DNA from: a virus
IMG/VR virus record: IMGVR_UViG_3300043419_000224
Coordinates: 1 to 22,403 of that record
DNA: 22,403 nt
Direction: 5' to 3' (one strand)
Under the pieces are notes generated by a model. That model did no database searches. It had not been told where the DNA came from and saw nothing but the letters and a program-made list of their open reading frames with translations. The position numbers and the translations under genes are program-made. Position 1 is the first letter of the stretch. Every line of letters begins with the position of its first letter. Shown here piece after piece: positions 2,674 through 21,980 of this stretch.

Positions 2674-4887
2674 TTACGCACCGATTTCTGCGAAGTTAAT
2701 AGCAGAACGAGCAGCAACGAAGTTAAGAGTGATAAAGTTGATAGAACGATTTGGCTTGATGAAGATATCAGCAATGAATTCATTGCGATCGATAACTTCG
2801 CCAGTGTTGTTAGACTCATCGCACTTAACACGGAAATCAGTGATACCACGGCGACCTTGTACATCACGCAAGAATGGTTCTACCAAGTTCTTGAACTGTG
2901 CACGAGTGAAGCTGTCGTTGAATTCGAACAACTGAAACTTAGCAGCAGTAGCAATTGATTTCTCAAGAACGATAAACAAGCGACGCACGTTGATACGATC
3001 GAACGCAGAAGGACGAGCCATCAGAGTCTTGTCGCCGAACAGAACAGTACCTTCTCCTGGGAAAGTAACAACTGGGTTAACACCGTTCTTGTAAAGTTCG
3101 TCACGTTGTGCTTTAGTTGGGTTGAATGCCAAACGAACAACATTCTTGATTTGACCACGATTCAGACCACCTGGAGAGAACCATGGGTCGTTAGTGTAGT
3201 CAGTACGAGCACACAGACCAGCAACGTCGCCGTTCAGTGGAACATAACGGTACTTGTCATTGTAGCGATCGTATTGGTATTTGTAACCAGAGTCAAGCAC
3301 AGCGTATGAAGTGCTTGGTAACGCATTGCGGTATGCAATAATAGCATTCTGCTCTGTTGATGTAGCACCAACGATTGGAGCGCCACCGCTGCTTTGTGGA
3401 GAGATGAAAGCTACGCAATCTAAACGATTTTCTACAACATTGCTGATAACAGAGTTAGCAACAGTAGTAGAAGCCTTACCTAAAAGGATCAAGCTAATAT
3501 CGTATGCTTCTGAGTTTTCGAACAAGCTAAACGCACTGGTTTTCTCGCCATCAGTCAATGAATAATCGTCAGCACCACCGCTAAAGTTACGGTTTACTGC
3601 AGCGTTCATGCTCTTGAATGCATTGTTTGCGGCTGGAGATCCCCATGCAACGCCTTGCTGTCCGACAGATGTTGTGTGATCCATCCACCAGATCCACTCA
3701 GAACGAGAGTTGATAACGTCCTTGTAGTAATTGTTTGTGCCGTCTGGTTTCTTAGCATCAGCAGCCTTAGAAACGAAAGCAAATTTTTCTAGGATAGAAC
3801 CAGCAACACCAGTGACACCACCATCACGGTCAAAAACGATGATGTGAAGTTCGTCGTTAGTTGAAGAATTTGATGCAGCGTATGTTGATGTACCAGGAGC
3901 AGCGTCAAATTCTTTAGCGCAGTTAATTTCTGCACCGTTGATAGTCACTGTCCAATTACTATATCTGGCAGAGTCTGCCATAGTAACGAATAAAGAGTTA
4001 CCTAGTCTACCTGGATACTTAGCAGCAAACTCACCAACGATACCAGCACCGTTAGCGTATTGCAACAGATAATCTTCACCGTTCTTGATCTTGATACCAG
4101 TACCAGTAGCAATAGTTGCAGTAGCAGTAGCAACTGTACCAGTTGGAGGTGCTGCGATAGTTACTGACGGAGCAGAAGTGTATCCAGAACCAGCTTGAAC
4201 GATATTAACACCAGTGATAGTAGATGTACCTAAAGTCACAGAGTTAACAACAGCACCGTTACCGTTACCAGAAATAGTAACAGTTGGAGTTGCTTTGTAA
4301 CCACTGCCACCATTAGTGATAGTAACACCACTGATTGCACCATTGGTGAACGAAGCAGTAGCAGTAGCGCCAGAGCCAGTGTCACCAGATGCAGGAGTGA
4401 TAGTGATTGTGGCTTCAGTGTAACCAGTCATGTTACCAGCTACAACGATAGCTGTAACAGCGCCACCAGAAAGAACTGCAGTACCAGTAGCAGTAGTGCC
4501 ACCATCAACGTCTGGAGCGCTGAAAGTGACTGCTGGGGCAAGAGCAGTAGAAACGTAACCAGAACCTGCTGTACCTACAGCAACTGCGGTCACACCACCT
4601 GTTGTAGAAGCAACCGCATTCAAGTGTCCAGCGTCTGCACGAACCAACAGTAGGTTATTTGTATAAGATAGGAAGTTTGCTGCTGTAAAGAAAGAGTCAA
4701 AGTTGCTGTCATTTGGTTTACCAAAACGACGAACTAATTCATTCTCAGAACTAACTGTAACTGGTTCCATAACTGGACCCCACTGGAATGCACCAGCGAA
4801 AGCACCAACAGAACTAGAAACGGCTGGAACGATAGAACTGAAATCTTTTTCTACGACTGCAACGCCTGGAGATAATTGAAACGGCAT
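2674..4887 (-). CDS. 18: Tail sheath protein gp18 with inserted GSGY-repeat region
   Basis: A 737-aa contractile sheath subunit (T4 gp18 is 659 aa). The N-terminus MPFQLSPGVAVVEKDFSSIV and segment GAFAGAFQWGPVMEP are classic phage sheath features. The C-terminal third has the conserved sheath core: CARTDYTNDPWFSPGG, GQIKNVVRLAFNPTKAQRD, GDKTLMARPSAFDRINVRRL and LEKSIATAAKFQLFEFND. Residues ~93-265 hold a glycine-, threonine- and alanine-rich region with three GSGY motifs (at about 108, 194 and 233) and a related TGY at about 154, each followed by a beta-strand pattern such as TPTVTISG or APSVTIA. It probably forms surface-exposed beta domains on the tail. The start is backed by AAGGAG upstream, and a late-promoter-like box plus a leader hairpin precede it. 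Confidence 0.96.
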   Translation of the reverse strand: MPFQLSPGVAVVEKDFSSIVPAVSSSVGAFAGAFQWGPVMEPVTVSSENELVRRFGKPNDSNFDSFFTAANFLSYTNNLLLVRADAGHLNAVASTTGGVTAVAVGTAGSGYVSTALAPAVTFSAPDVDGGTTATGTAVLSGGAVTAIVVAGNMTGYTEATITITPASGDTGSGATATASFTNGAISGVTITNGGSGYKATPTVTISGNGNGAVVNSVTLGTSTITGVNIVQAGSGYTSAPSVTIAAPPTGTVATATATIATGTGIKIKNGEDYLLQYANGAGIVGEFAAKYPGRLGNSLFVTMADSARYSNWTVTINGAEINCAKEFDAAPGTSTYAASNSSTNDELHIIVFDRDGGVTGVAGSILEKFAFVSKAADAKKPDGTNNYYKDVINSRSEWIWWMDHTTSVGQQGVAWGSPAANNAFKSMNAAVNRNFSGGADDYSLTDGEKTSAFSLFENSEAYDISLILLGKASTTVANSVISNVVENRLDCVAFISPQSSGGAPIVGATSTEQNAIIAYRNALPSTSYAVLDSGYKYQYDRYNDKYRYVPLNGDVAGLCARTDYTNDPWFSPGGLNRGQIKNVVRLAFNPTKAQRDELYKNGVNPVVTFPGEGTVLFGDKTLMARPSAFDRINVRRLFIVLEKSIATAAKFQLFEFNDSFTRAQFKNLVEPFLRDVQGRRGITDFRVKCDESNNTGEVIDRNEFIADIFIKPNRSINFITLNFVAARSAINFAEIGA

Positions 4888-6542: not shown

Positions 6543-7286
6543 TTAAAAGTTATCTTCCCAATTTTCAGTATTAACTGTAGCAGTAGTCGTGTCGCCTTCG
6601 GCAGTGTAAATTCTTGTAGCTGTATAATCTTCTTTTAAACCAACATTAGCGTATACAGTATCGATAACATTTTTACCAGAAACTGGTCCAAACAAGCTAG
6701 TCTTTAATGTAAAGTTTAATGTGTGGGTCACAAAACGACGAGTCTGGAAATCACCATCATACTCATCTACAACTGACACACTATTTAACACGATTGGAAC
6801 GTCTAGTTTTACGTTCATCTCTGGGACAGTGTTAACTGTCAGCGTGTACTCTGGAGTGAATGTTGGTAATATCTGCTCTATGATTTGCAGACCATCTTCT
6901 TGGGTCTTGGTCAATACATACAGAGATATTTCTATATTGTACGGAACAGGACTGTACATAAATGTCTTTGATGAAGTACCGTCACCACATTCGATTTTCT
7001 GCATGCGGTTTAGTTTTCTCATCGAATCATATGAGTATCCAGTGATCTCAAAAGACATTCTTGGTAAAGAAACATAGGTATTGTTTTCAAGATTAGGATC
7101 TTGCTCGATACGAACTAACCATTTTTCTTTTGGAGCATATGCCAGTGGAACTTGTAATCTCTGGATCGTAGTTCCATTCACAGAGTCGCCTTGTTTACGA
7201 TCAATGTAGATGTCGCTAAACAAACGACCAAAAGCTACAATGCTCTTGCGAATAATTCCATGATAAAATACATTATTGTTAAGCAT
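6543..7286 (-). CDS. 15: Tail sheath stabilisation/completion protein gp15
   Basis: A 247-aa protein (T4 gp15 is 272 aa) that caps the finished tail as a hexamer and joins it to the neck. The N-terminal pattern MLNNNVFYHGIIRKSIVAFG and following LFSDIYIDR, then RIEQDPNL, LPRMSFEITGYSYDSMRKLN and PVPYNIEISLYVLTKTQEDG are strong gp15 features, as is the position between 14 and 17. The ATG shares one base with the gp14 stop (TAATG), with AGGTG upstream, so it is translationally coupled to gp14. The shorter length compared with T4 is not accompanied by any visible damage. Confidence 0.93.
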   Translation of the reverse strand: MLNNNVFYHGIIRKSIVAFGRLFSDIYIDRKQGDSVNGTTIQRLQVPLAYAPKEKWLVRIEQDPNLENNTYVSLPRMSFEITGYSYDSMRKLNRMQKIECGDGTSSKTFMYSPVPYNIEISLYVLTKTQEDGLQIIEQILPTFTPEYTLTVNTVPEMNVKLDVPIVLNSVSVVDEYDGDFQTRRFVTHTLNFTLKTSLFGPVSGKNVIDTVYANVGLKEDYTATRIYTAEGDTTTATVNTENWEDNF

Positions 7287-8203
7287 TAGTCACCTACCTC
7301 GCCGAATGGGTTAGTCTCACTAAACAGTATATCAGTGGCTTCTTCTTTAAATTTATTGTTGTCACCAAACGACTCGACTCTGTCGATATCTGATTCGATG
7401 ACGGATGCTGCCTGAGCACCGCTACCGCCACCACCCGTTAAAGTGATGACTGGTGCAGTTTGATATCTCTCACCACCATTTGTTACTTCGATAGAAACAA
7501 CTTTACCAGCAGTAGACCCTGAACCAAGAACCGCTGTGGCTGTTGCGCCTAGTCCGCTGCTTGATGTGAATACAACTGTTGGAGCAGATGTGTAACCACT
7601 TCCTTGAGCAGTCACATTAATTTTAGTAACTTGCCCATAAGGTGTTCTTGTTGTATTCGTTGTGAAAGTCTTGAGAGATTCAAACGCATCGATCTCTTTA
7701 ATACCTGTATCAATGCGCTCAGAACTATATTGAAACAGCTCAACTTGTAGTTTGTAAACATATAGTTTACCAAGTTGATAGAATGGATCTTGGTGTTTGA
7801 CAAACTTAATCTCAAACAAACCTTTTGTTAATGGGAAATAAATTAAGTCCCCTTCGTTTGGTCTATTCGGTAGAGTTGTTGCACCATAACGACCGACTAA
7901 CTGTTCCCATCGACGACGAGCAACTACTAGCGTAGCAGACTGCTCCATCATTAAACCAAACTTTTGAATGAATGCACCTTGTCCGTCTAGAGAATCTACG
8001 TTTTCAAAGTACATCTCGATAGGAAAGGATGTTTTAAACTCAGATAATCTATCCTCTCCAAGAATGTTGTCTTTAGAAACTAAAGTTCTTGGGATGTAGA
8101 AAAACTCTTGACCATAAATCTTTAAAGATTCGATGATCAAGTCTTCGACTAGATACTGTTCATTTCTCGTACCGTGAGAAAAATAAACATTTACTGTTGA
8201 CAT
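7286..8203 (-). CDS. 14: Neck protein gp14 with inserted GSGY module
   Basis: A 305-aa protein (T4 gp14 is 256 aa) that with gp13 forms the neck joining head and tail. The first ~175 residues carry the family pattern: VNVYFSHGTRNEQYLVEDLI, EFFYIPRTLV, PIEMYFENVDSLDGQG, then DLIYFPLTKGLFEIKFVKH and LYVYKLQVELFQYSSERIDT. Residues ~191-272 are a glycine- and alanine-rich region with GSGYTSAPTVVF near 201 and a second unit NGGERYQTAPVITLTGGG near 242, after which the C-terminus resumes with FKEEATDILFSETNPFGEVGD. This module resembles the one in the sheath protein and accounts for the extra length. The gene starts 2 bases after the gp13 stop with AGGA at suitable spacing. Confidence 0.93.
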   Translation of the reverse strand: MSTVNVYFSHGTRNEQYLVEDLIIESLKIYGQEFFYIPRTLVSKDNILGEDRLSEFKTSFPIEMYFENVDSLDGQGAFIQKFGLMMEQSATLVVARRRWEQLVGRYGATTLPNRPNEGDLIYFPLTKGLFEIKFVKHQDPFYQLGKLYVYKLQVELFQYSSERIDTGIKEIDAFESLKTFTTNTTRTPYGQVTKINVTAQGSGYTSAPTVVFTSSSGLGATATAVLGSGSTAGKVVSIEVTNGGERYQTAPVITLTGGGGSGAQAASVIESDIDRVESFGDNNKFKEEATDILFSETNPFGEVGD

Positions 8204-9514: not shown

Positions 9515-10102
9515 TTATGCTATTGCAATAATTGATAATGTGGGCACAACAGTAAGTAATATACCAGTGCCGTCATAGTAGTTAGTAGCGTGCATTGATC
9601 TAGCGTTACCGCTTCCATGCGCACGCCACCACATAGAAAGTCTTTTTGGCGCTGTCCACTCTGATACTCTGCCTGTGTTAAAATTAGTAGTTCCACCAAT
9701 AGCCATAGTCCACATAAATTCGGTGTTATCTTCTGGATAGCGACCAGATCTGCTGTGTCTAGCGAAAACTATTTCATCTGAATCTATGTAAAACTTCATA
9801 TTAGAAATAGCATGATCATGTTCCCATCTCATACCATATCTAAATTTGTAGATAACTCTAGTTGCGCCAAGTGGTGGACAGTAAGAGACATCTGATCCAG
9901 GGATCATCTCATATGAGTAAATCGCTTGTCTGTAATTGTTAATCTGTGCCGCAGATATTTCAGAAACTGCTCCGAGATCAGATGAACCATCACCATTACA
10001 AACCAAATATTCCATCACCCTTCCTGGGCGTGTTGGTATTCCGTTGACAAGCAAATCTTGTCCACTGCTGTTCTGTATTGTATTTACTCTTAAAACACTC
10101 AT
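9515..10102 (-). CDS. Small fibre/knob paralog 5 (SGRYPED type)
   Basis: A 195-aa protein and the last of five tandem small paralogs. The N-terminus MSVLRVNTIQNSSGQDLLVN and the PGRVMEYL segment match the leader shared by all five. The body has a predicted beta-rich pattern: PPLGATRVIYKFRYGM, then HDHAISNMKFYIDSDEIVFA, then HSRSGRYPED, AIGG and ending PTLSIIAIA. It is clearly homologous to the next gene upstream (10102-10692), roughly half the residues matching by eye. The ATG overlaps the previous stop (TAATG) and there is no recognisable Shine-Dalgarno, so translation should depend on coupling. Probably a phage surface protein, fibre tip or decoration; the ligand is unknown. Confidence 0.7.
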   Translation of the reverse strand: MSVLRVNTIQNSSGQDLLVNGIPTRPGRVMEYLVCNGDGSSDLGAVSEISAAQINNYRQAIYSYEMIPGSDVSYCPPLGATRVIYKFRYGMRWEHDHAISNMKFYIDSDEIVFARHSRSGRYPEDNTEFMWTMAIGGTTNFNTGRVSEWTAPKRLSMWWRAHGSGNARSMHATNYYDGTGILLTVVPTLSIIAIA

Positions 10103-10692
10103 TATGCAATGGCTATAATTGTTAAAATCGGCATACTAAACTGTGTACTACCAGTACCATCCCAATATGTAGTTCCGTGTAAACCTCTGGCATTACTCGT
10201 TCCATATGCACGCCATTGCATTTTTAAATTTAGCGATGTTGTCCATGATGCTAGTCTACCAGTATTCACATTTCCTGCGCCGCCAATCGCTATGTTCCAC
10301 ACAAAAGAATATCTGTCTTCTGGATAACGACCAGATCTGCTAAAACGAGCAAATGTCACTTCGTTGGCACCAACAAAAAACTTAAAGTGAGAAATAGCGT
10401 GGTCATGGTTCCAATACATCGCATAGTTAAAATCATAAATAACACGAGTTGTTCCAGCGGGTGGAGTGTAGTTTATAGAAGAACCTTGTACGTCTGTGTA
10501 AGTATACACTGGTCCAACAGCAGCAGTTACGTTTTGGAATGTATATGTTCCAGAACCAACAGTTACAGATGATCCGTCACACGGGCTACTCAAATACTCG
10601 ATAACTTGTCCTGGTCTTCTGGGATAGCCATTAACCAGCACATCCTCATTTGCATTATTTCTAATTGTATCAACTTTTAAGAATGACGGCAT
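10102..10692 (-). CDS. Small fibre/knob paralog 4 (SGRYPED type)
   Basis: A 196-aa homolog of the gene just downstream. Shared elements in order: FLKVDTIRNNANEDVLVNG, RRPGQVIEYL, PPAGTTRVIYDFNYAM, NHDHAISHFKFFVGANEVTF, SGRYPED, AIGG, NARGLHGTTYWDGTG and a C-terminal LTIIAIA. This fold pattern (PPxGTTRVIY, conserved HAI, terminal hydrophobic strand) is seen in small fibre or collar proteins of environmental T4-like phages, but I cannot name a family. The ATG overlaps the preceding stop (TAATG) and has GAGGTAGAG upstream. The differences from its partner cluster between the conserved strands (for example the region after DGSS), as expected for diversifying surface loops. Confidence 0.72.
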   Translation of the reverse strand: MPSFLKVDTIRNNANEDVLVNGYPRRPGQVIEYLSSPCDGSSVTVGSGTYTFQNVTAAVGPVYTYTDVQGSSINYTPPAGTTRVIYDFNYAMYWNHDHAISHFKFFVGANEVTFARFSRSGRYPEDRYSFVWNIAIGGAGNVNTGRLASWTTSLNLKMQWRAYGTSNARGLHGTTYWDGTGSTQFSMPILTIIAIA

Positions 10693-11276
10693 TAATCTCT
10701 ACCTCGTATTTCTGTTAAAATCCAACCATACTCCATATACTGATCTACAAGATAGTTAGTGCCAGATGATTGGTAATATAATTTATAACTTACCTCTTCG
10801 GTAGTACCAGGAAAGTCAAAGTATTTAAATTCTGCAGGAGCCCATGAATTTGTGTTGTAGTTCCATCCATATGCATATCTGTAACTACTTCTAGTATCTG
10901 CAGTTAAGTTGTTAAATCCATTAAATGTATTGCTATCGTAGTTGAACCAGTTATTGCTAGCGTATGTACCACCCTGTCTGTATAGTGTACAAACTAACCA
11001 TCCAGCAGCACCGTAAAGCATAGTACTAAAAAATCTAACATAAATTGTGCTACTTTTAAATCTTGGTTTGATAGTACCAATCAATCCCAATTCTACTGGT
11101 CCACCAGATGTGGCTAATGCACCAGCAGTCATAGCAGTAGTTCTAACTTCTTGAACAATAGATCCTGGACCGCTATAAATTTCGTTATCTGTAGAAATTA
11201 TTCTATTTCCTGTATTAACGAAAAAATCACCGCTGCCGATTTCTGATGTTAGTTGTGAAACTCTAACAACACTCAT
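10692..11276 (-). CDS. Small fibre/knob paralog 3 (MEYGW type)
   Basis: A 194-aa protein sharing the leader MSVVRVSQLTSEIGSGDFFV and PGSIVQEV with its neighbours. The remaining body is IKPRFKSSTIYVRFFSTMLY, then YRYAYGWNYNTNSW, FPGTTEEVSYKLYYQ and TNYLVDQYMEYGWILTEI. This is the pattern of a small beta-sandwich found in many phage fibre C-terminal parts (ITPK..SKI.V ... SP.TTS..TY ... I.L.EI). It is closest to the next gene downstream, which shares the YLV.QYMEYGW.TEI ending. Its ATG overlaps the upstream stop in the 11273-11276 junction by 4 bases on the other side (ATGA). Function inferred as surface adhesin or decoration. Confidence 0.72.
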   Translation of the reverse strand: MSVVRVSQLTSEIGSGDFFVNTGNRIISTDNEIYSGPGSIVQEVRTTAMTAGALATSGGPVELGLIGTIKPRFKSSTIYVRFFSTMLYGAAGWLVCTLYRQGGTYASNNWFNYDSNTFNGFNNLTADTRSSYRYAYGWNYNTNSWAPAEFKYFDFPGTTEEVSYKLYYQSSGTNYLVDQYMEYGWILTEIRGRD

Positions 11277-11821
11277 TGTTTAATCTCCGTAGCAACCCAA
11301 CCATATTCCATGTATTGGTGCACCAAATAATTAGTTGCTGTGCTACTCCAGTTTCTGTAAAGTAATTGATATGTTACTGCAGATGTTGTGTTCGGAGTAT
11401 CAAAATATATATTGTTCTGCGCCATCCAACTAGAACTATTATAGCTCCAACCATATGTATACCTAGAAGATGTGCCAGTCGCTGGAGTTAAATCTGAAAA
11501 AGAGCCAGCACCTATTCTACGTTGTAGTGTTAGTGTCAAAGCATTAGCGTTTCCTAGCAACATAGTGCTAAAGAACTCAACTTTAATAATGCTATTAGCA
11601 AAGATAGGTGTTATGGTGAGGTTTAACCCAAGAGTAGTATTACTAGTTGATGTTACTGTGATATGACTTGTTGGCATCGCAGTGGCATATTGTACCTGTA
11701 CGACGCCTCTGTTAGTTGTTATCGCACCAACGTCTGTGCCAACCAATCTACTACCAGTTGGAATAGTAATAGTTCCAGTACCAGTTCTTGCTGCCAGTTG
11801 ATCAACTTGTAGTCTACTCAC
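11273..11821 (-). CDS. Small fibre/knob paralog 2 (MEYGW type), GTG start
   Basis: A 182-aa protein if it starts at GTG 11821-11819. I prefer this to the ATG at 11836 because it gives (M)SRLQVDQLAARTGTGTI, aligned with the MS..RV.QL leader of its paralogs, because GTG and the previous TGA overlap as GTGA, and because GGGAG lies 8 bases upstream. The body shows GVVQVQYATAMP, LTITPIFANSIIKVEFFSTM, YTYGWSYNSSSW, YFDTPNTTSAVTYQLLYRN and the ending TNYLVHQYMEYGWVATEI. The nearest relative is the neighbouring 194-aa gene. It is a probable phage surface protein with a beta-sandwich pattern; the receptor or partner is unknown. Confidence 0.72.
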   Translation of the reverse strand: MSRLQVDQLAARTGTGTITIPTGSRLVGTDVGAITTNRGVVQVQYATAMPTSHITVTSTSNTTLGLNLTITPIFANSIIKVEFFSTMLLGNANALTLTLQRRIGAGSFSDLTPATGTSSRYTYGWSYNSSSWMAQNNIYFDTPNTTSAVTYQLLYRNWSSTATNYLVHQYMEYGWVATEIKQ

Positions 11822-12393
11822 TGCGCAATCTCCCATAATGTAATAGAACTTGTGCCAGCTTCGTGACCACCAGATGTATAACCTACAGTACGATTAGTCC
11901 ACAAGGTTATGGCTGTGTCAGTTTGAACACAAGCTGTGTATGTTATTGTGGAAGTTGTAGCTGGAGAATCCAGATAGTTATAGAATACACCCTCAGGTGT
12001 ACTGCTGCTGTCAGCATCACGGTAGCTGAGATAAGAAATCATCAAACCAGTGTTTCTATCTGTTGGCCACGATGGGTTTCTACCAATCAGTGTAGTACCT
12101 CTTCTTAAATTCCACATTAAGTTCCAAGTAGCAGCTTCGTTACTGAATTCACCCATCCATCTAACTTCAACCAAAATTTTGCTCGCTGAACTTTTTGGTG
12201 TAATAGAAGCAGTTAATGGTATGTTTGTGAATGCTGTATAGCTGCTCGGGATAGACATTGATGACTGATCCCATGTGTGGTTTTGAATAACTTGTACAAC
12301 TGACCCTGGAGAATACACTATGTCTCCAGGCACAACTGTTATAATACCAGACACTGCTGGTGATTCTAATTGCGAAACTACCAATTTACTCAT
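11818..12393 (-). CDS. Small fibre/knob paralog 1
   Basis: A 191-aa protein. The start at 12393 gives MSKLVVSQLESPAVSGIITV, overlaps the previous TGA as ATGA, and has GGAG 6 bases upstream; the in-frame ATG at 12405 would lie inside the upstream gene and lacks this fit. The sequence is the most typical member of the small fibre beta-sandwich family here: SPGSVVQVIQNHTWDQ, PLTASITPKSSASKILVEVR, YLDSPATTSTITYTACVQTD and the ending SSITLWEIAQ. This module is common at the C-termini of large fibres in marine phages, so here it occurs as a free-standing gene. Its place directly after the 241-aa fibre and before two further pairs suggests an expanding adhesin cassette. Confidence 0.75.
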   Translation of the reverse strand: MSKLVVSQLESPAVSGIITVVPGDIVYSPGSVVQVIQNHTWDQSSMSIPSSYTAFTNIPLTASITPKSSASKILVEVRWMGEFSNEAATWNLMWNLRRGTTLIGRNPSWPTDRNTGLMISYLSYRDADSSSTPEGVFYNYLDSPATTSTITYTACVQTDTAITLWTNRTVGYTSGGHEAGTSSITLWEIAQ

Positions 12394-13115
12394 ACAATAC
12401 TCCACTCGCCACCAGAGGCTATAGTTATCGTGATACCATCTGAAATAGTTATTGGACCAGAACTAGTCATATTTGAGTTAGCTCCAACTGTATAGGCAGT
12501 TGTTACTGTTTTACCATTTTCCCAAAAGATTTGATCTGCACCACCACCTGTTGCGCCGACAGCACCAGAGGTAGCAAACAGCGACCAGTAAGTAGCATTT
12601 GGTGGTACATTGTTTGTTGTTTGTAATACACAAACATATGCAGAACCAAGCCATTGAACAGCGTCTCTTGGATAATATGTTGTTGCTGAGTTCCAGGTGC
12701 TACGCCAGATCAATCCTTGTGGAACTACAAAGTTAAATGCAACATCTCCAGCACCACTTGTCGTTGCTGTTACGTTACCGCTTTGCCCGCTAGTTGCATT
12801 AGCCACAGTACCCAACGAAACAACAGGTGCTCTAGGCATAGTCATTTGTAAGACTACGTCTCCGTTAGTTCCACTATTAGTTATAGATGGATTAGAGTTT
12901 GGGTTACCAACCAGCATCGGTGTAGCATGCATAGCAACAGAAGCTGCTCTTGGTAAACCAAAACTAAACAAAGCAGAACCAGTAGATCCTGTGTTTGTTA
13001 TTGATGGGGTTTGATTTGGGTTTAATGTTGTTAATGTTCCAACATCAACAGTAGCCGTTGGACCCTTCTCACCACGAACAGTCGACGCTGCTAAAATTTG
13101 ACTTAATAATGCCAT
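12390..13115 (-). CDS. Tail fibre protein with carbohydrate-binding-like segment
   Basis: A 241-aa fibre protein. Residues ~20-130 contain repeats of the fibre-shaft type (PSITNTGSTGSALFSFGLPR, then PSITNSGTNGDVVLQMTMPR, then FNFVVPQG). Residues ~137-181 read WRSTWNSATTYYPRDAVQWL, GSAYVCVLQTT and YWSLFA, the pattern of a carbohydrate-binding module of the CBM5/12-like kind (aromatic residues, then D.V...G..Y.C, then P....YW). Residues ~196-241 (FWENGKTVTTAYTVGANSNM ... GPITISDGITITIASGGEWSIV) match the terminal beta segment seen at the end of fibre proteins in many phages and pyocins. It is coupled to the upstream 750-aa fibre (TAATG) with GGGAGA upstream. Probably binds a cell-surface glycan; the sugar cannot be read from sequence. 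Confidence 0.8.
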   Translation of the reverse strand: MALLSQILAASTVRGEKGPTATVDVGTLTTLNPNQTPSITNTGSTGSALFSFGLPRAASVAMHATPMLVGNPNSNPSITNSGTNGDVVLQMTMPRAPVVSLGTVANATSGQSGNVTATTSGAGDVAFNFVVPQGLIWRSTWNSATTYYPRDAVQWLGSAYVCVLQTTNNVPPNATYWSLFATSGAVGATGGGADQIFWENGKTVTTAYTVGANSNMTSSGPITISDGITITIASGGEWSIV

Positions 13116-18219: not shown

Positions 18220-18555
18220 TTATATTTGTGTTATTTGTGGGTTCACTGTAACGATTCCTTCTACCACTCTGGTTTTAGAACCATTTGGAGAAGTTATTTC
18301 TACATCATACAACCATCTTCCTGCAGGAATGGCTTCTGATTGTGCTGGTGATAACTGAAGACGAACTTTTCCCTGAGCAGCACTAAACACAGTAGCATTA
18401 AGGTTAAATGCTTGGCTTGAGCTGTATGATTTTCTCATTTGTGAGGCAACAGTGTATCCTGTCAAATCAAGTGCTTGACCATTAGATGCACTAACAGTAA
18501 TTATGTTACTGTAAGAAGCCCCAGCGTCCACAAAAAGGTTGCTTATAGTTGCCAT
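18220..18555 (-). CDS. Baseplate/fibre accessory protein, BppU-N-like (111 aa)
   Basis: A 111-aa beta-rich protein. The pattern (N-terminal ISNLFVDAGASYSNIITVSA, then LDLTGYTVASQMRKSY, then GKVRLQLSPAQSEAIPAGRW, then LYDVEITSPNGSKTRVVEGI) is that of the immunoglobulin-like domain found in upper baseplate proteins (BppU N-terminal) and in small structural proteins of many myoviruses. It follows a consensus late promoter (TATAAATA) and the upstream terminator, so it is the first gene of the second fibre block. AGGA is 7 bases before the ATG. The exact role is unproven: a connector between baseplate and fibres is my preferred guess. Confidence 0.7.
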   Translation of the reverse strand: MATISNLFVDAGASYSNIITVSASNGQALDLTGYTVASQMRKSYSSSQAFNLNATVFSAAQGKVRLQLSPAQSEAIPAGRWLYDVEITSPNGSKTRVVEGIVTVNPQITQI

Positions 18556-18647: not shown

Positions 18648-18872
18648 TCAACCTTCTGATGCAGGTACTTCCCATACCTGATTCAAGTCTTGTGGATTAG
18701 TGAATACGCCAGCAGCGTATTCCCAACCGATAGCAACTGGAGAACCAGTAACATTTACATATTCGTAACTACCAAAACCAGCATCATCTACAGAATTAGG
18801 AATTTTATCCCAAACACATGTGTTTTCTACAACGCCGTTTTTAATATGTGCAATAGTGTATACTTGACTCAT
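18648..18872 (-). CDS. Small fibre-associated protein (74 aa)
   Basis: A 74-aa protein, last gene of the glycine-rich block before the terminator. The pattern YTIAHIKNGVVENTCVWD ... SPVAIGWEYAAGVFTNPQ resembles short proteins that accompany fibre genes in many phages (I.NG.V.N...D and IGW.Y..G.F..P) and are sometimes annotated as fibre assembly or hypothetical. A strong Shine-Dalgarno (AAGGAG) is 7 bases before the ATG, and the gene begins 10 bases after the preceding stop. The function is unknown; a role in folding or attaching the glycine-rich fibres would fit the position but is not shown. Confidence 0.65.
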   Translation of the reverse strand: MSQVYTIAHIKNGVVENTCVWDKIPNSVDDAGFGSYEYVNVTGSPVAIGWEYAAGVFTNPQDLNQVWEVPASEG

Positions 18873-18882
18873 TTATATCTCC

Positions 18883-19608
18883 TTATAGTCCGTAGATTTC
18901 TTCAACAATAACGCATCCTTGAGCACCAGCAGAGCCAGAGCCACCGCCACCACCAGTGACACCGTTTGCTGCAACACCGTGGCGACCACCGCCACTAATA
19001 CCACCACCACCGCCATTACCCGAGACAGAAACTGCTGGAACTTGTCCGTATCCATAGTAGTATATATTTACAGAAGCAGCGCCATATGATTGGCCACGCT
19101 GGCCACCCAGTACTGTTACGTTCGTTCCACTAGCATTACCACCATCTCCTGGTGTGGTGCCAGATCCTGCAGCACCTCCAGTAGCAGAAACATAGGTACC
19201 AAAAGAAGTAGTACCACCAGCAGCACCCGAGGCACCGCCACCACCCACAGTAACAGTTACGTTTGTTGTAAGGTCAGCTAGTTCGATAGTTCTAGTTCCA
19301 ATACCACCGCTACCACCACCAGCGTTTGAGCCGCCACCACCACCGCCACCGTATGCTGTGACAACAACACGTCTTAAATCTGTTTTACCAGTCAGTGTCC
19401 ATGTTGCTGCTCCGACAGTAGTGAATACTTCAGTTCTAGTGAATCCACGTGGGCGGTCTTGGCGAGCAGAAGGGACACCACCAGCAGTAGTACCATCATG
19501 CACTACTGTTACGTTTTTATCTGTGTCTACAGTCACTTCGCCCAAAGCACCAGTAAATGAGCTATGTTGCGCTGTAGTTCCTCTTCTAAATCTAACTTGT
19601 TTTGACAT
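18883..19608 (-). CDS. Glycine-rich fibre protein, paralog 3
   Basis: A 241-aa protein, third of three tandem paralogs. Residues ~1-45 (MSKQVRFRRGTTAQHSSFTG, then EVTVDTDKNVTVVHDGTTAGG) are the short phage fibre N-terminal domain that anchors many fibre proteins. After a linker (RPRGFTRTEVFTT) comes KTDLRRVVVTAYGGGGGGG, then a long Gly-rich region with interspersed strands, ending GAQGCVIVEEIYGL. This is the glycine-rich surface domain seen in fibre tips and adhesins (poly-glycine helices); T-even gp38 is an analogous Gly-rich adhesin, but I see no direct homology. SD AGAGGA is 8 bases before the ATG. A receptor-binding tip role is inferred. Confidence 0.78.
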   Translation of the reverse strand: MSKQVRFRRGTTAQHSSFTGALGEVTVDTDKNVTVVHDGTTAGGVPSARQDRPRGFTRTEVFTTVGAATWTLTGKTDLRRVVVTAYGGGGGGGSNAGGGSGGIGTRTIELADLTTNVTVTVGGGGASGAAGGTTSFGTYVSATGGAAGSGTTPGDGGNASGTNVTVLGGQRGQSYGAASVNIYYYGYGQVPAVSVSGNGGGGGISGGGRHGVAANGVTGGGGGSGSAGAQGCVIVEEIYGL

Positions 19609-19661
19609 TTAATTTATCCTCTTAAACAAATCCATAAATTTCTTCGATGATCACGCAACCT
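19574..19661 (-). repeat. 88-bp perfect direct repeat, copy A
   Basis: Identical over 88 bases to 20298-20385 (offset 724). It covers the first codons of the paralog 3 gene, the 13-base spacer with its ribosome-binding site, and the last codons of paralog 2. Confidence 0.95.
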
Positions 19662-20332
19662 TGTGCACCAGCTTGTCCACCACTGCCACCACCGCCACCT
19701 CTAATACCTTGTGCTGCAACACCTGCACGACCTGCGCCAAAACCACCGCCAGCTGCGCCGTTTTGTGGAAAAAACTGAGATCCATAAACAGGGTGTGTAT
19801 AGTTATTTCCATTTCTACCAGCTTGTGCGCCCATATTGGTAACGCTAGTTCCAGAAGCGGTTCCTGGTGCACCACCTGCATCAGTTCCGCCGCCACCACC
19901 GCCACCGCTGGCAGAAATGTAAGTGCCGAACGAAGTAGTACCACCAGTAGCAGTAGAGCCACCACCAGCGCCAATAGTTACAGTTGTATTAGTTGTTAAT
20001 TCGCTGACATCTAATGTGCGAAAACCGTAACCACCCGCACCGCCACCTGATGCAGCGCCGCCACCGCCACCACCACCGTATGCTGTAACACGAATTCTCT
20101 TTAAATCGGTTTTGTTTGCAATAGTATATGTAGTGCCAGTTGTGGTGAATACTTCCATTCTAGTAAAACCACGTGGTCGATCTTCTCTTAGTAAAGGGAT
20201 ACCACCAGCAGTAGTTCCGTTATGGACAACAGGAACTTTTTTATCTGTATCTACAGTGACTTCTCCAGCAATACCTGTAAAGGCAGCATGCTGAGCAGTA
20301 GTTCCTCTTCTAAATCTAACTTGTTTTGACAT
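19622..20332 (-). CDS. Glycine-rich fibre protein, paralog 2
   Basis: A 236-aa paralog with the same architecture: MSKQVRFRRGTTAQHAAFTG and EVTVDTDKKVPVVHNGTTAGG, then RPRGFTRMEVFTT, KTDLKRIRVTAYGGGGGGG, a Gly-rich repeat region, and the ending GAQGCVIIEEIYGFV. The Gly-rich part differs from its neighbours in a central loop (NYTHPVYGSQFFPQNGA), while both ends are strongly conserved, which suggests that the central region is the variable, exposed part. The start and upstream leader lie inside an 88-bp exact repeat, so the ribosome-binding site AGAGGA is identical to that of paralog 3. Confidence 0.78.
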   Translation of the reverse strand: MSKQVRFRRGTTAQHAAFTGIAGEVTVDTDKKVPVVHNGTTAGGIPLLREDRPRGFTRMEVFTTTGTTYTIANKTDLKRIRVTAYGGGGGGGAASGGGAGGYGFRTLDVSELTTNTTVTIGAGGGSTATGGTTSFGTYISASGGGGGGGTDAGGAPGTASGTSVTNMGAQAGRNGNNYTHPVYGSQFFPQNGAAGGGFGAGRAGVAAQGIRGGGGGSGGQAGAQGCVIIEEIYGFV

Positions 20333-20385
20333 TTAATTTATCCTCTTAAACAAATCCATAAATTTCTTCGATGATCACGCAACCT
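20298..20385 (-). repeat. 88-bp perfect direct repeat, copy B
   Basis: Identical to 19574-19661. It spans the start of paralog 2, the spacer and the end of paralog 1. A third, shorter match (the first ~40 bases of coding sequence) is at 20996 downwards. Confidence 0.95.
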
Positions 20386-20996
20386 GGTCCACCAGTAGCG
20401 TTAACACCACCAGCTCCGAAAACACCTCTAGCAGTTGAGCTCGAACCCTCACCGCCACCATGAGATGTTGTTGTGGGGTTTAGAGGAGCAGTCGATCCAC
20501 CCTGACCACCTAAGTTAAATGCACCAGCGCCTGAAACACCACCACCTGAACCTGCCGTTGTGCCAGATGCTGCAGCACCACCAGCGCATGAAAGGTATGA
20601 TCCAAACGAAGTAGTGCCGCCAGTTCCAGTAGAACCAGCACCGACTGTAACTGCAACTGTTGTTGTGATTGCGCTGGCTTCAAGGATAACCATACCGACA
20701 CCACCTTGTCCGCCACCAGCAGTAGCCCCACCGCCACCACCACCGTATGCATACACAATGATACGTTTTAAATCTGTTTTACCAGATTGAGACCAAGTAC
20801 CGTTGGCTGTAAAAATTTCAGTTCTAGACCAACCACGTTGACGATCTGCTCTAGCCACAGTAACACCACCTGCTGTAACACCATCGTGCACAACTAAGGC
20901 TTTCTTGTCTGTATTAACTGTGATCTCACCTGCTGGACCAGTAAACACACTGTGCTGAGCAGTAGTTCCTCTTCTAAATCTAACTTGTTTTGACAT
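20346..20996 (-). CDS. Glycine-rich fibre protein, paralog 1
   Basis: A 216-aa paralog, first of the three in transcription order and the shortest. It shows MSKQVRFRRGTTAQHSVFTG and EITVNTDKKALVVHDGVTAGG, then RQRGWSRTEIFTANGTWS, KTDLKRIIVYAYGGGGGGA, a Gly-rich region and the end GPGCVIIEEIYGFV. The Gly-rich segment is shorter than in its relatives, with a different central sequence (STAPLNPTTTSHGGGEG). AGGGA is ~9 bases before the ATG. A promoter-like GGTAAATA overlaps the stop region of the upstream gene at 21019-21026 but is a poor match. Likely fibre tip or decoration protein. Confidence 0.77.
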   Translation of the reverse strand: MSKQVRFRRGTTAQHSVFTGPAGEITVNTDKKALVVHDGVTAGGVTVARADRQRGWSRTEIFTANGTWSQSGKTDLKRIIVYAYGGGGGGATAGGGQGGVGMVILEASAITTTVAVTVGAGSTGTGGTTSFGSYLSCAGGAAASGTTAGSGGGVSGAGAFNLGGQGGSTAPLNPTTTSHGGGEGSSSTARGVFGAGGVNATGGPGCVIIEEIYGFV

Positions 20997-21017: not shown

Positions 21018-21980
21018 TTATTTACCAAGGAACTCAATACTCATTTGAGCTAAGTTAGGATGGTTATAGTCAAAACCGTAAACTGTTCTAGTTGGTAATG
21101 TTCCGATACCATCAGACATAGCATATAATCTTAGTGTCTCGTATTTATTCAAATAAACGACACGATGAGCATAGTTTTCGTTGTTGGCGAATGTTGCAGT
21201 AGTGTTATCTAGTGAAGTCTGGCTACCACCAAGCATAAAGTAAACATCACCATCTGTCCACACAGAGAACATAACTTTATACCAACCTTCCCAGTTAGTA
21301 GTAAAGTAACCAGCATCGAATGTGCCCATACGTGTGTCGATAATACGAGCACTAGTAAATGGGATAGGAGTTGGAGTACCTTGTGGAACTGTAGTATGGC
21401 TAGTCTTTAATAGGTGGCAGAAACCTTGCTGAGAAGCAACCATGTTCTCAAAATCAAGGTTATTTTTGTGAGCAGCCAAGTGCTTAACACCAGCACGTGT
21501 AACACCATCATAAATTGTGAAAGTGTACCAAGTTGGGTCGATGTAGATATCACCCTGTGTACCTTTGTTAACCAGTGAAAGTTGGAACCAATCAGCAGTC
21601 GATGATGTAGGTGTAGTGATTAAGTCCCAGTCTTCTGTGAGGTCGACTGCTTCAGTCAGTGTAGAATAATCTTCGGTTTCAAGATATTCAACACCAAGTG
21701 TAGAAATTGAGAAGTTTGGATCTTGTGCTGTAGAAAGAACAACCCAAGAACTACCGTTAGAGTAGTAAACTTTTTGCGTATCAGATACATATACCACACG
21801 ACCTGTAGAACTGGCTGCAGTAGGTAGCTGAGAGTATAGAGCAACTGATGTTAAAACACCATTATCCAAAGACTCTAATGCTTTTGCAAGATAAATGACT
21901 TCTTTGCTATCACTACTAGTAGTAAGAGCATTCATTTTACCTTGGATAACTGCTTCTAATGATGAAATATTAACAGTCAT
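21018..21980 (-). CDS. Structural/fibre protein with possible jelly-roll C-terminal domain (320 aa)
   Basis: A 320-aa protein. The N-terminus NISSLEAVIQGKMNALTTSS and EVIYLAKALESL is predicted helical and may be an anchor or coiled coil. The segment SVALYSQLPTAASSTGRVVY VSDTQKVYYSNGSSWV (read as two pieces around residues 50-85) is a widespread fibre module. The C-terminal ~150 residues (FTSARIIDTRMGTFDAGYFT, then GWYKVMFSVWTDGDVYFMLGG, then YLNKYETLRLYAMSDGIGTL) read like a C1q/TNF-like jelly roll: repeated aromatic beta strands with the last strand MSIEFLGK. No enzyme motif is visible. It starts 25 bases from a promoter-like box and has GGAGA upstream. Virion fibre or decoration role inferred. 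Confidence 0.7.
   Translation of the reverse strand: MTVNISSLEAVIQGKMNALTTSSDSKEVIYLAKALESLDNGVLTSVALYSQLPTAASSTGRVVYVSDTQKVYYSNGSSWVVLSTAQDPNFSISTLGVEYLETEDYSTLTEAVDLTEDWDLITTPTSSTADWFQLSLVNKGTQGDIYIDPTWYTFTIYDGVTRAGVKHLAAHKNNLDFENMVASQQGFCHLLKTSHTTVPQGTPTPIPFTSARIIDTRMGTFDAGYFTTNWEGWYKVMFSVWTDGDVYFMLGGSQTSLDNTTATFANNENYAHRVVYLNKYETLRLYAMSDGIGTLPTRTVYGFDYNHPNLAQMSIEFLGK

Follow-up and report, generated by a model that had tools for sequence, protein, structure and literature searches.

The 22,403-nucleotide stretch of viral DNA analysed here (hereafter the window), a virus record of 22.4 kb that represents only a fragment, carries three tandem paralogous genes, A, B and C, whose two junctions contain an 88-bp perfect direct repeat. 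We consider it probable, at roughly three chances in four, that these genes are old, specialised and non-interchangeable paralogs of receptor-binding type that undergo local gene conversion at their junctions and in short patches, and that they are not a copy-number cassette. The preliminary description had interpreted the repeat as a recombination cassette for variation of fibre tips. Recombination does appear to act at the junction, whereas the gain or loss of whole genes is not supported, given the constant gene number and position groups of related arrays, and the tips stay where they are.

Layout of the array and its repeated junctions

The genes follow one another in the order A-B-C, all on the minus strand, and the features of the array and its neighbours are as follows.

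21018..21980, minus strand: upstream neighbour, 320 aa; conserved, and bounding the array upstream in every relative
20346..20996, minus strand: gene A, 216 aa; Mtd_N domain and glycine-rich region; first of the three tandem paralogs
20962..20996, minus strand: a third copy, limited to the gene start; 35 nt common to A, B and C, and 44 nt common to A and B
20298..20385, minus strand: repeat copy 1; 3'-terminal 40 nt of A, 13-nt spacer containing GAGGA, 5'-terminal 35 nt of B
19622..20332, minus strand: gene B, 236 aa; Mtd_N domain and a modelled TNF-like/glycine-rich head of receptor-binding type
19574..19661, minus strand: repeat copy 2; 3'-terminal 40 nt of B, 13-nt spacer containing GAGGA, 5'-terminal 35 nt of C
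18883..19608, minus strand: gene C, 241 aa; Mtd_N domain and glycine-rich region; last of the three tandem paralogs
18648..18872, minus strand: downstream neighbour, 74 aa; conserved, and the downstream edge of the array
18220..18555, minus strand: downstream neighbour, 111 aa; conserved, in a PHROG family of L-shaped tail fibre assembly/unknown function

The repeat was described at the outset as perfect, as covering a gene end, a spacer with a ribosome site and a gene start in each copy, and as having a period of one gene unit, and we confirmed all of these properties. The two copies (19574-19661 and 20298-20385) are identical and maximal, being extendable on neither side, and their offset of 724 corresponds to one gene plus its spacer; the GAGGA in the spacer resembles a ribosome-binding site. 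No longer exact repeat exists in the window, and the next longest (44 and 35 bp) come from the same gene starts. When computed with the same amino acids and the codon usage of the window, the chance that 13 end codons, 10 start codons and the 13-nt spacer would all be identical is ~4e-16, and hence the identity of the junctions is not due to chance. The paralogs were also said to have diverging centres and fixed ends. The divergence of the centres is supported, and the fixed ends are so only in part: approximately the first 12 codons are common to all three genes, whereas the end of gene C is unlike those of A and B, and codons 20-60 are specific to each position.

Homogenisation of the junctions

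The closest relative of the window, L004, is 81-84% identical in aligned protein and has its own perfect repeat, of 97 bp, at the same junctions and with different letters. At both junctions of the two genomes, 10 consecutive variable sites are equal within a genome and different between genomes. Relative to the end of the stop codon, this run reaches from ~30 nt upstream to 9 nt downstream, and it is flanked on both sides by sites that support orthology, the nearest at -43 and +74. Such a ten-site run was obtained in 0 of 20000 shuffles, a count that is not an exact probability because the sequences are related. Together, these sites argue that the junctions evolve in concert and were homogenised after the window phage and L004 had split.

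In whole-gene quartets, the A-B pair gave 85 ortholog, 23 concerted and 11 crossed sites; in the other pairs, concerted sites did not outnumber crossed ones to any meaningful degree (15 versus 12 for B-C, and 11 versus 14 for A-C). A long perfect junction repeat occurs only in the window and L004, which are close relatives of each other, among the ten arrays described below; spacers vary freely in the other eight. No other strain was found when IMG/VR was searched for an exact 48-mer and 30-mer of the junction.

Copy number and positional identity in relatives

Scans of IMG/VR with gene B, with a C-type alignment and with the upstream 320-aa gene, both alone and as an alignment, converged on one set of contigs. 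These provided ten distinct complete arrays, namely those of the window, L004, L005, L006, L007, L008, L010, L091, L092 and L093; L089 would be an eleventh, but its array has the same sequence as that of L005 and was not counted. Variants in copy number, which the preliminary description had proposed to look for in relatives, did not appear: all ten arrays have exactly three paralogs in the order A-B-C, and complete arrays of one, two or four genes were not seen. The neighbours on both sides are the same wherever the contig extends far enough. The nine other arrays are ~52-84% identical to the window in protein. In the protein tree, all A, all B and all C proteins each form one group (support 99/95, 86/92 and 77/70), and the triplication would therefore be older than the family, and the paralogs themselves old. 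Judged from contigs, the copy number looks fixed, and transient variants within populations are possible.

Four of the 14 contigs with the upstream 320-aa gene (L084, L011, L012 and L099) break inside the array, at A+171, A+583, B+275 and B+363. These breaks are not at the junction repeat and may reflect either strain variation or assembly breaks at glycine repeats; contigs truncated in this way carry no information on copy number. L084, a partial close relative, overlaps the window in the first 171 nt of A, short of the junction. A more distant contig (L100:104-1817) has two related paralogs in a different arrangement, 262 bp apart. Beyond IMG/VR, a phage collection gave only N-terminal Mtd-like matches and no relative of the upstream 320-aa gene, and a genome collection gave relatives at the level of Mtd_N only.

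Exchange within the genes and stability of the tips

Synonymous codons are shared between paralogs within a genome more often than shuffled genome labels would predict (0.615 versus 0.578, z 5.7, in ten genomes). Codon usage was considered as a cause of this similarity within genomes and was ruled out (0.513 versus 0.511). The excess peaks in the GGTTSFGTY block and at the gene start and is absent from codons 20-60 and from the variable tip. Nearest neighbours indicate exchange at the 3' end as well: the closest sequence belongs to the same genome for 12 of 30 genes in the mid-gene block and for 7 of 30 at the 3' end, against shuffled means of 2.0 and 1.1, respectively. Only one of 30 variable tips behaves in this manner; the remaining 29 are closest to a tip at the same position in another genome. 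Exchange within genomes is seen in other relatives too, in short conserved patches and not in the variable tips. In L007 (4971/5675/6394), the longest exact repeats, of 41-47 nt, link all three paralogs at the mid-gene GGTTSFGTYISATGG block and not at the junction. RecA-family recombinase genes are present in two relatives of ~162 kb.

Protein domains and predicted fold

The glycine-rich, fibre-type character ascribed to these proteins holds in the sense that A, B and C would be receptor-binding-type glycine-rich tail proteins, with receptor binding suggested by their family and fold. All three match Pfam Mtd_N (PF18454) above the cut-off and PHROG 863; in B and C, the glycine-rich family PF21722 scored slightly below the cut-off. 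Over its residues 1-59, the family profile matches Mtd structures of Bordetella phage (PDB 1yu0, E 1.1e-19), and this match stops at residue 59, with nothing beyond the N-terminal domain. Structure was predicted for B alone, by AlphaFold. The model is confident from about residue 60, with pLDDT mostly >90 in the head, and the first 50 residues are of low confidence. It aligned with the fibre protein gp24 of cyanophage Pam3 (PDB 7ypx, 7yfw) over 176 residues by VIA-align (Z 19.3, rmsd 3.0, 33% identity) and was also matched to it by Foldseek (E 6e-7). Accordingly modelled, B is predicted to carry a TNF-like and glycine-rich head like that of the Pam3 fibre.

The window also encodes structural proteins of T4-like type, with portal, tail tube, sheath, terminase, sheath stabiliser and neck proteins, and T4-like phages of Synechococcus and Methylophilales have terminases ~50% identical to its own. 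The region 9515-12405 holds more small tail-type proteins in tandem: 9515-10102 and 10102-10692 can be recognised by eye as paralogs (195/196 aa), and 10692-11276, 11273-11836 and 11818-12405 have a similar layout; the two of these genes that were tested (9515-10102 and 10692-11276) had no PHROG match. Stretches of the tail sheath and of a neck protein (2674-4887 and 7286-8203) match the same PHROGs, such as 460 and 701, which suggests a shared inserted domain.

Proposed mechanism and alternative explanations

In the reading that we favour, each of A, B and C would combine an Mtd-like N-terminal attachment domain with a glycine-rich head, and each would be held at its own position. The repeat would then consist of two layers. 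One is a strongly conserved gene start of 35-44 nt, found in all three genes and largely in relatives; the other, comprising the A and B ends together with the spacer and its ribosome site, would be made identical within a genome by homologous recombination. This could proceed by gene conversion or by crossovers that restore the three-gene state; a cycle of unequal crossover returning to three genes would leave the same marks as gene conversion, and the two are indistinguishable here. Conversion is probably carried out by the phage's own recombination system. Exchange would be limited to short conserved patches, with no swapping of variable tips between positions. Gene loss should be easy, since 88 bp exceeds the ~50 bp given as sufficient for efficient homologous recombination (Singer 1982, as cited in PMC8022953). 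That such loss is absent from all complete arrays suggests that all three genes are needed; the copy number would stay at three presumably because all three proteins are required, under selection for all three genes. We think it unlikely, though conceivable, that A, B and C form an obligate A:B:C mixed trimer or occupy three dedicated docking positions on one fibre complex, in which case exactly three genes would be kept in step and short-range conversion would keep the shared parts compatible while the tips evolve separately.

A cassette that varies the fibre tips through loss or duplication of one gene, by crossover between the two 88-bp copies, would draw on a repeat longer than that recombination length, an offset of exactly one gene unit and the RecA-family genes of relatives. 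It is nevertheless improbable, as every complete array has three genes, the position groups are old, the tips keep their positions, and eight of the ten arrays lack the perfect repeat. If selection on sequence alone constrained the protein ends, the ribosome site and the start, identical junctions could arise without any exchange, and this agrees with the conserved protein ends and with the first 35 nt, which A, B and C have in common and which hardly differ in other genomes. It would not produce synonymous and spacer changes that are common to both junctions of one genome and different between genomes, or spacers that differ freely in eight other arrays, and we rate it very improbable.

A similarly slight probability attaches to an assembly artefact, whereby a short-read assembler merged two similar junctions and exaggerated their identity. 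The sequences are metagenome contigs, probably from short reads, and several related contigs break inside the array. Against this, two independent contigs show the repeat with different letters and with unique flanks on both sides, the junctions of the eight other arrays stayed distinct, and 88 bp is below common read lengths. Recent duplication of one gene, with the identical junctions as unerased identity by descent, has next to no probability. A tandem duplication would leave identical junctions of such a kind; however, protein identity to B is only 57% for A and 64% for C, the three genes predate the split of all relatives, and the protein tree refutes this explanation.

The preferred reading, local gene conversion among three fixed paralogs, would make this array a natural case in which the gene number has stayed fixed over long evolution despite long perfect repeats that ought to permit gene loss. 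The fixed number suggests a simultaneous need for all three receptor-binding-type paralogs. Exchange would be confined to framework segments of an adhesin-like protein, and the presumed receptor-facing tips would keep their positional identity.

Comparison with known systems

The predicted TNF-like and glycine-rich head of B resembles gp24 of Pam3, which is described as recognising the receptor and as having a conserved glycine stem and a variable tip (PMC9608196). The two systems differ at the N terminus, where the Pam3 domain is an alpha-helical shaft and the window proteins are Mtd-like, and also in the presence of three tandem paralogs in the window phage. The Pam3 fibre has a bound chaperone, gp25; the 111-aa downstream neighbour in the window matches a PHROG for L-shaped tail fibre assembly. 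All three window proteins share their N-terminal domain with Mtd of Bordetella phage. Unlike Mtd, they are without the C-type-lectin variable domain, and the matches of their C-terminal part are to glycine-rich families and, in the case of B, to the fold of the Pam3 fibre. The Mtd domain led us to consider a diversity-generating retroelement, and none was found; an Mtd-style retroelement is unlikely because no reverse transcriptase was present in four related contigs, two of them of ~162 kb, the window itself being a 22-kb fragment.

A literature search for tail-fibre paralogs undergoing exchange retrieved nothing close. Gene conversion is known to keep repeated gene copies alike within a genome, for example in the rRNA operons of E. 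coli (PMC8022953). The A-B-C array resembles these operons in having copies kept alike within a genome and differs from them in that only junctions and short blocks are homogenised, whereas the gene bodies diverge. The glycine domain of Pam3 was reported to be similar to gp38 of phage S16 (PMC9608196), and S16 gp38, with its polyglycine sandwich fold, was not among the structural matches listed for the B model. In alignments, the window proteins resemble the gp38 adhesins of T-even phages (T2, S16 and PP01) in that variable segments lie between glycine-rich motifs. For gp38, recombination at conserved motifs was reported, according to the title of Tetart 1998 as cited in PMC12529663, to swap adhesin specificity. 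There, gp38 is the adhesin on the end of the long gp37 fibre, and its specificity is what the reported swaps alter; in the window array, three fixed paralogs would exchange short patches within one genome and leave their tips unswapped. Exchange restricted to the framework would set the array apart from the motif-to-motif swapping that T-even gp38 is reported to undergo.
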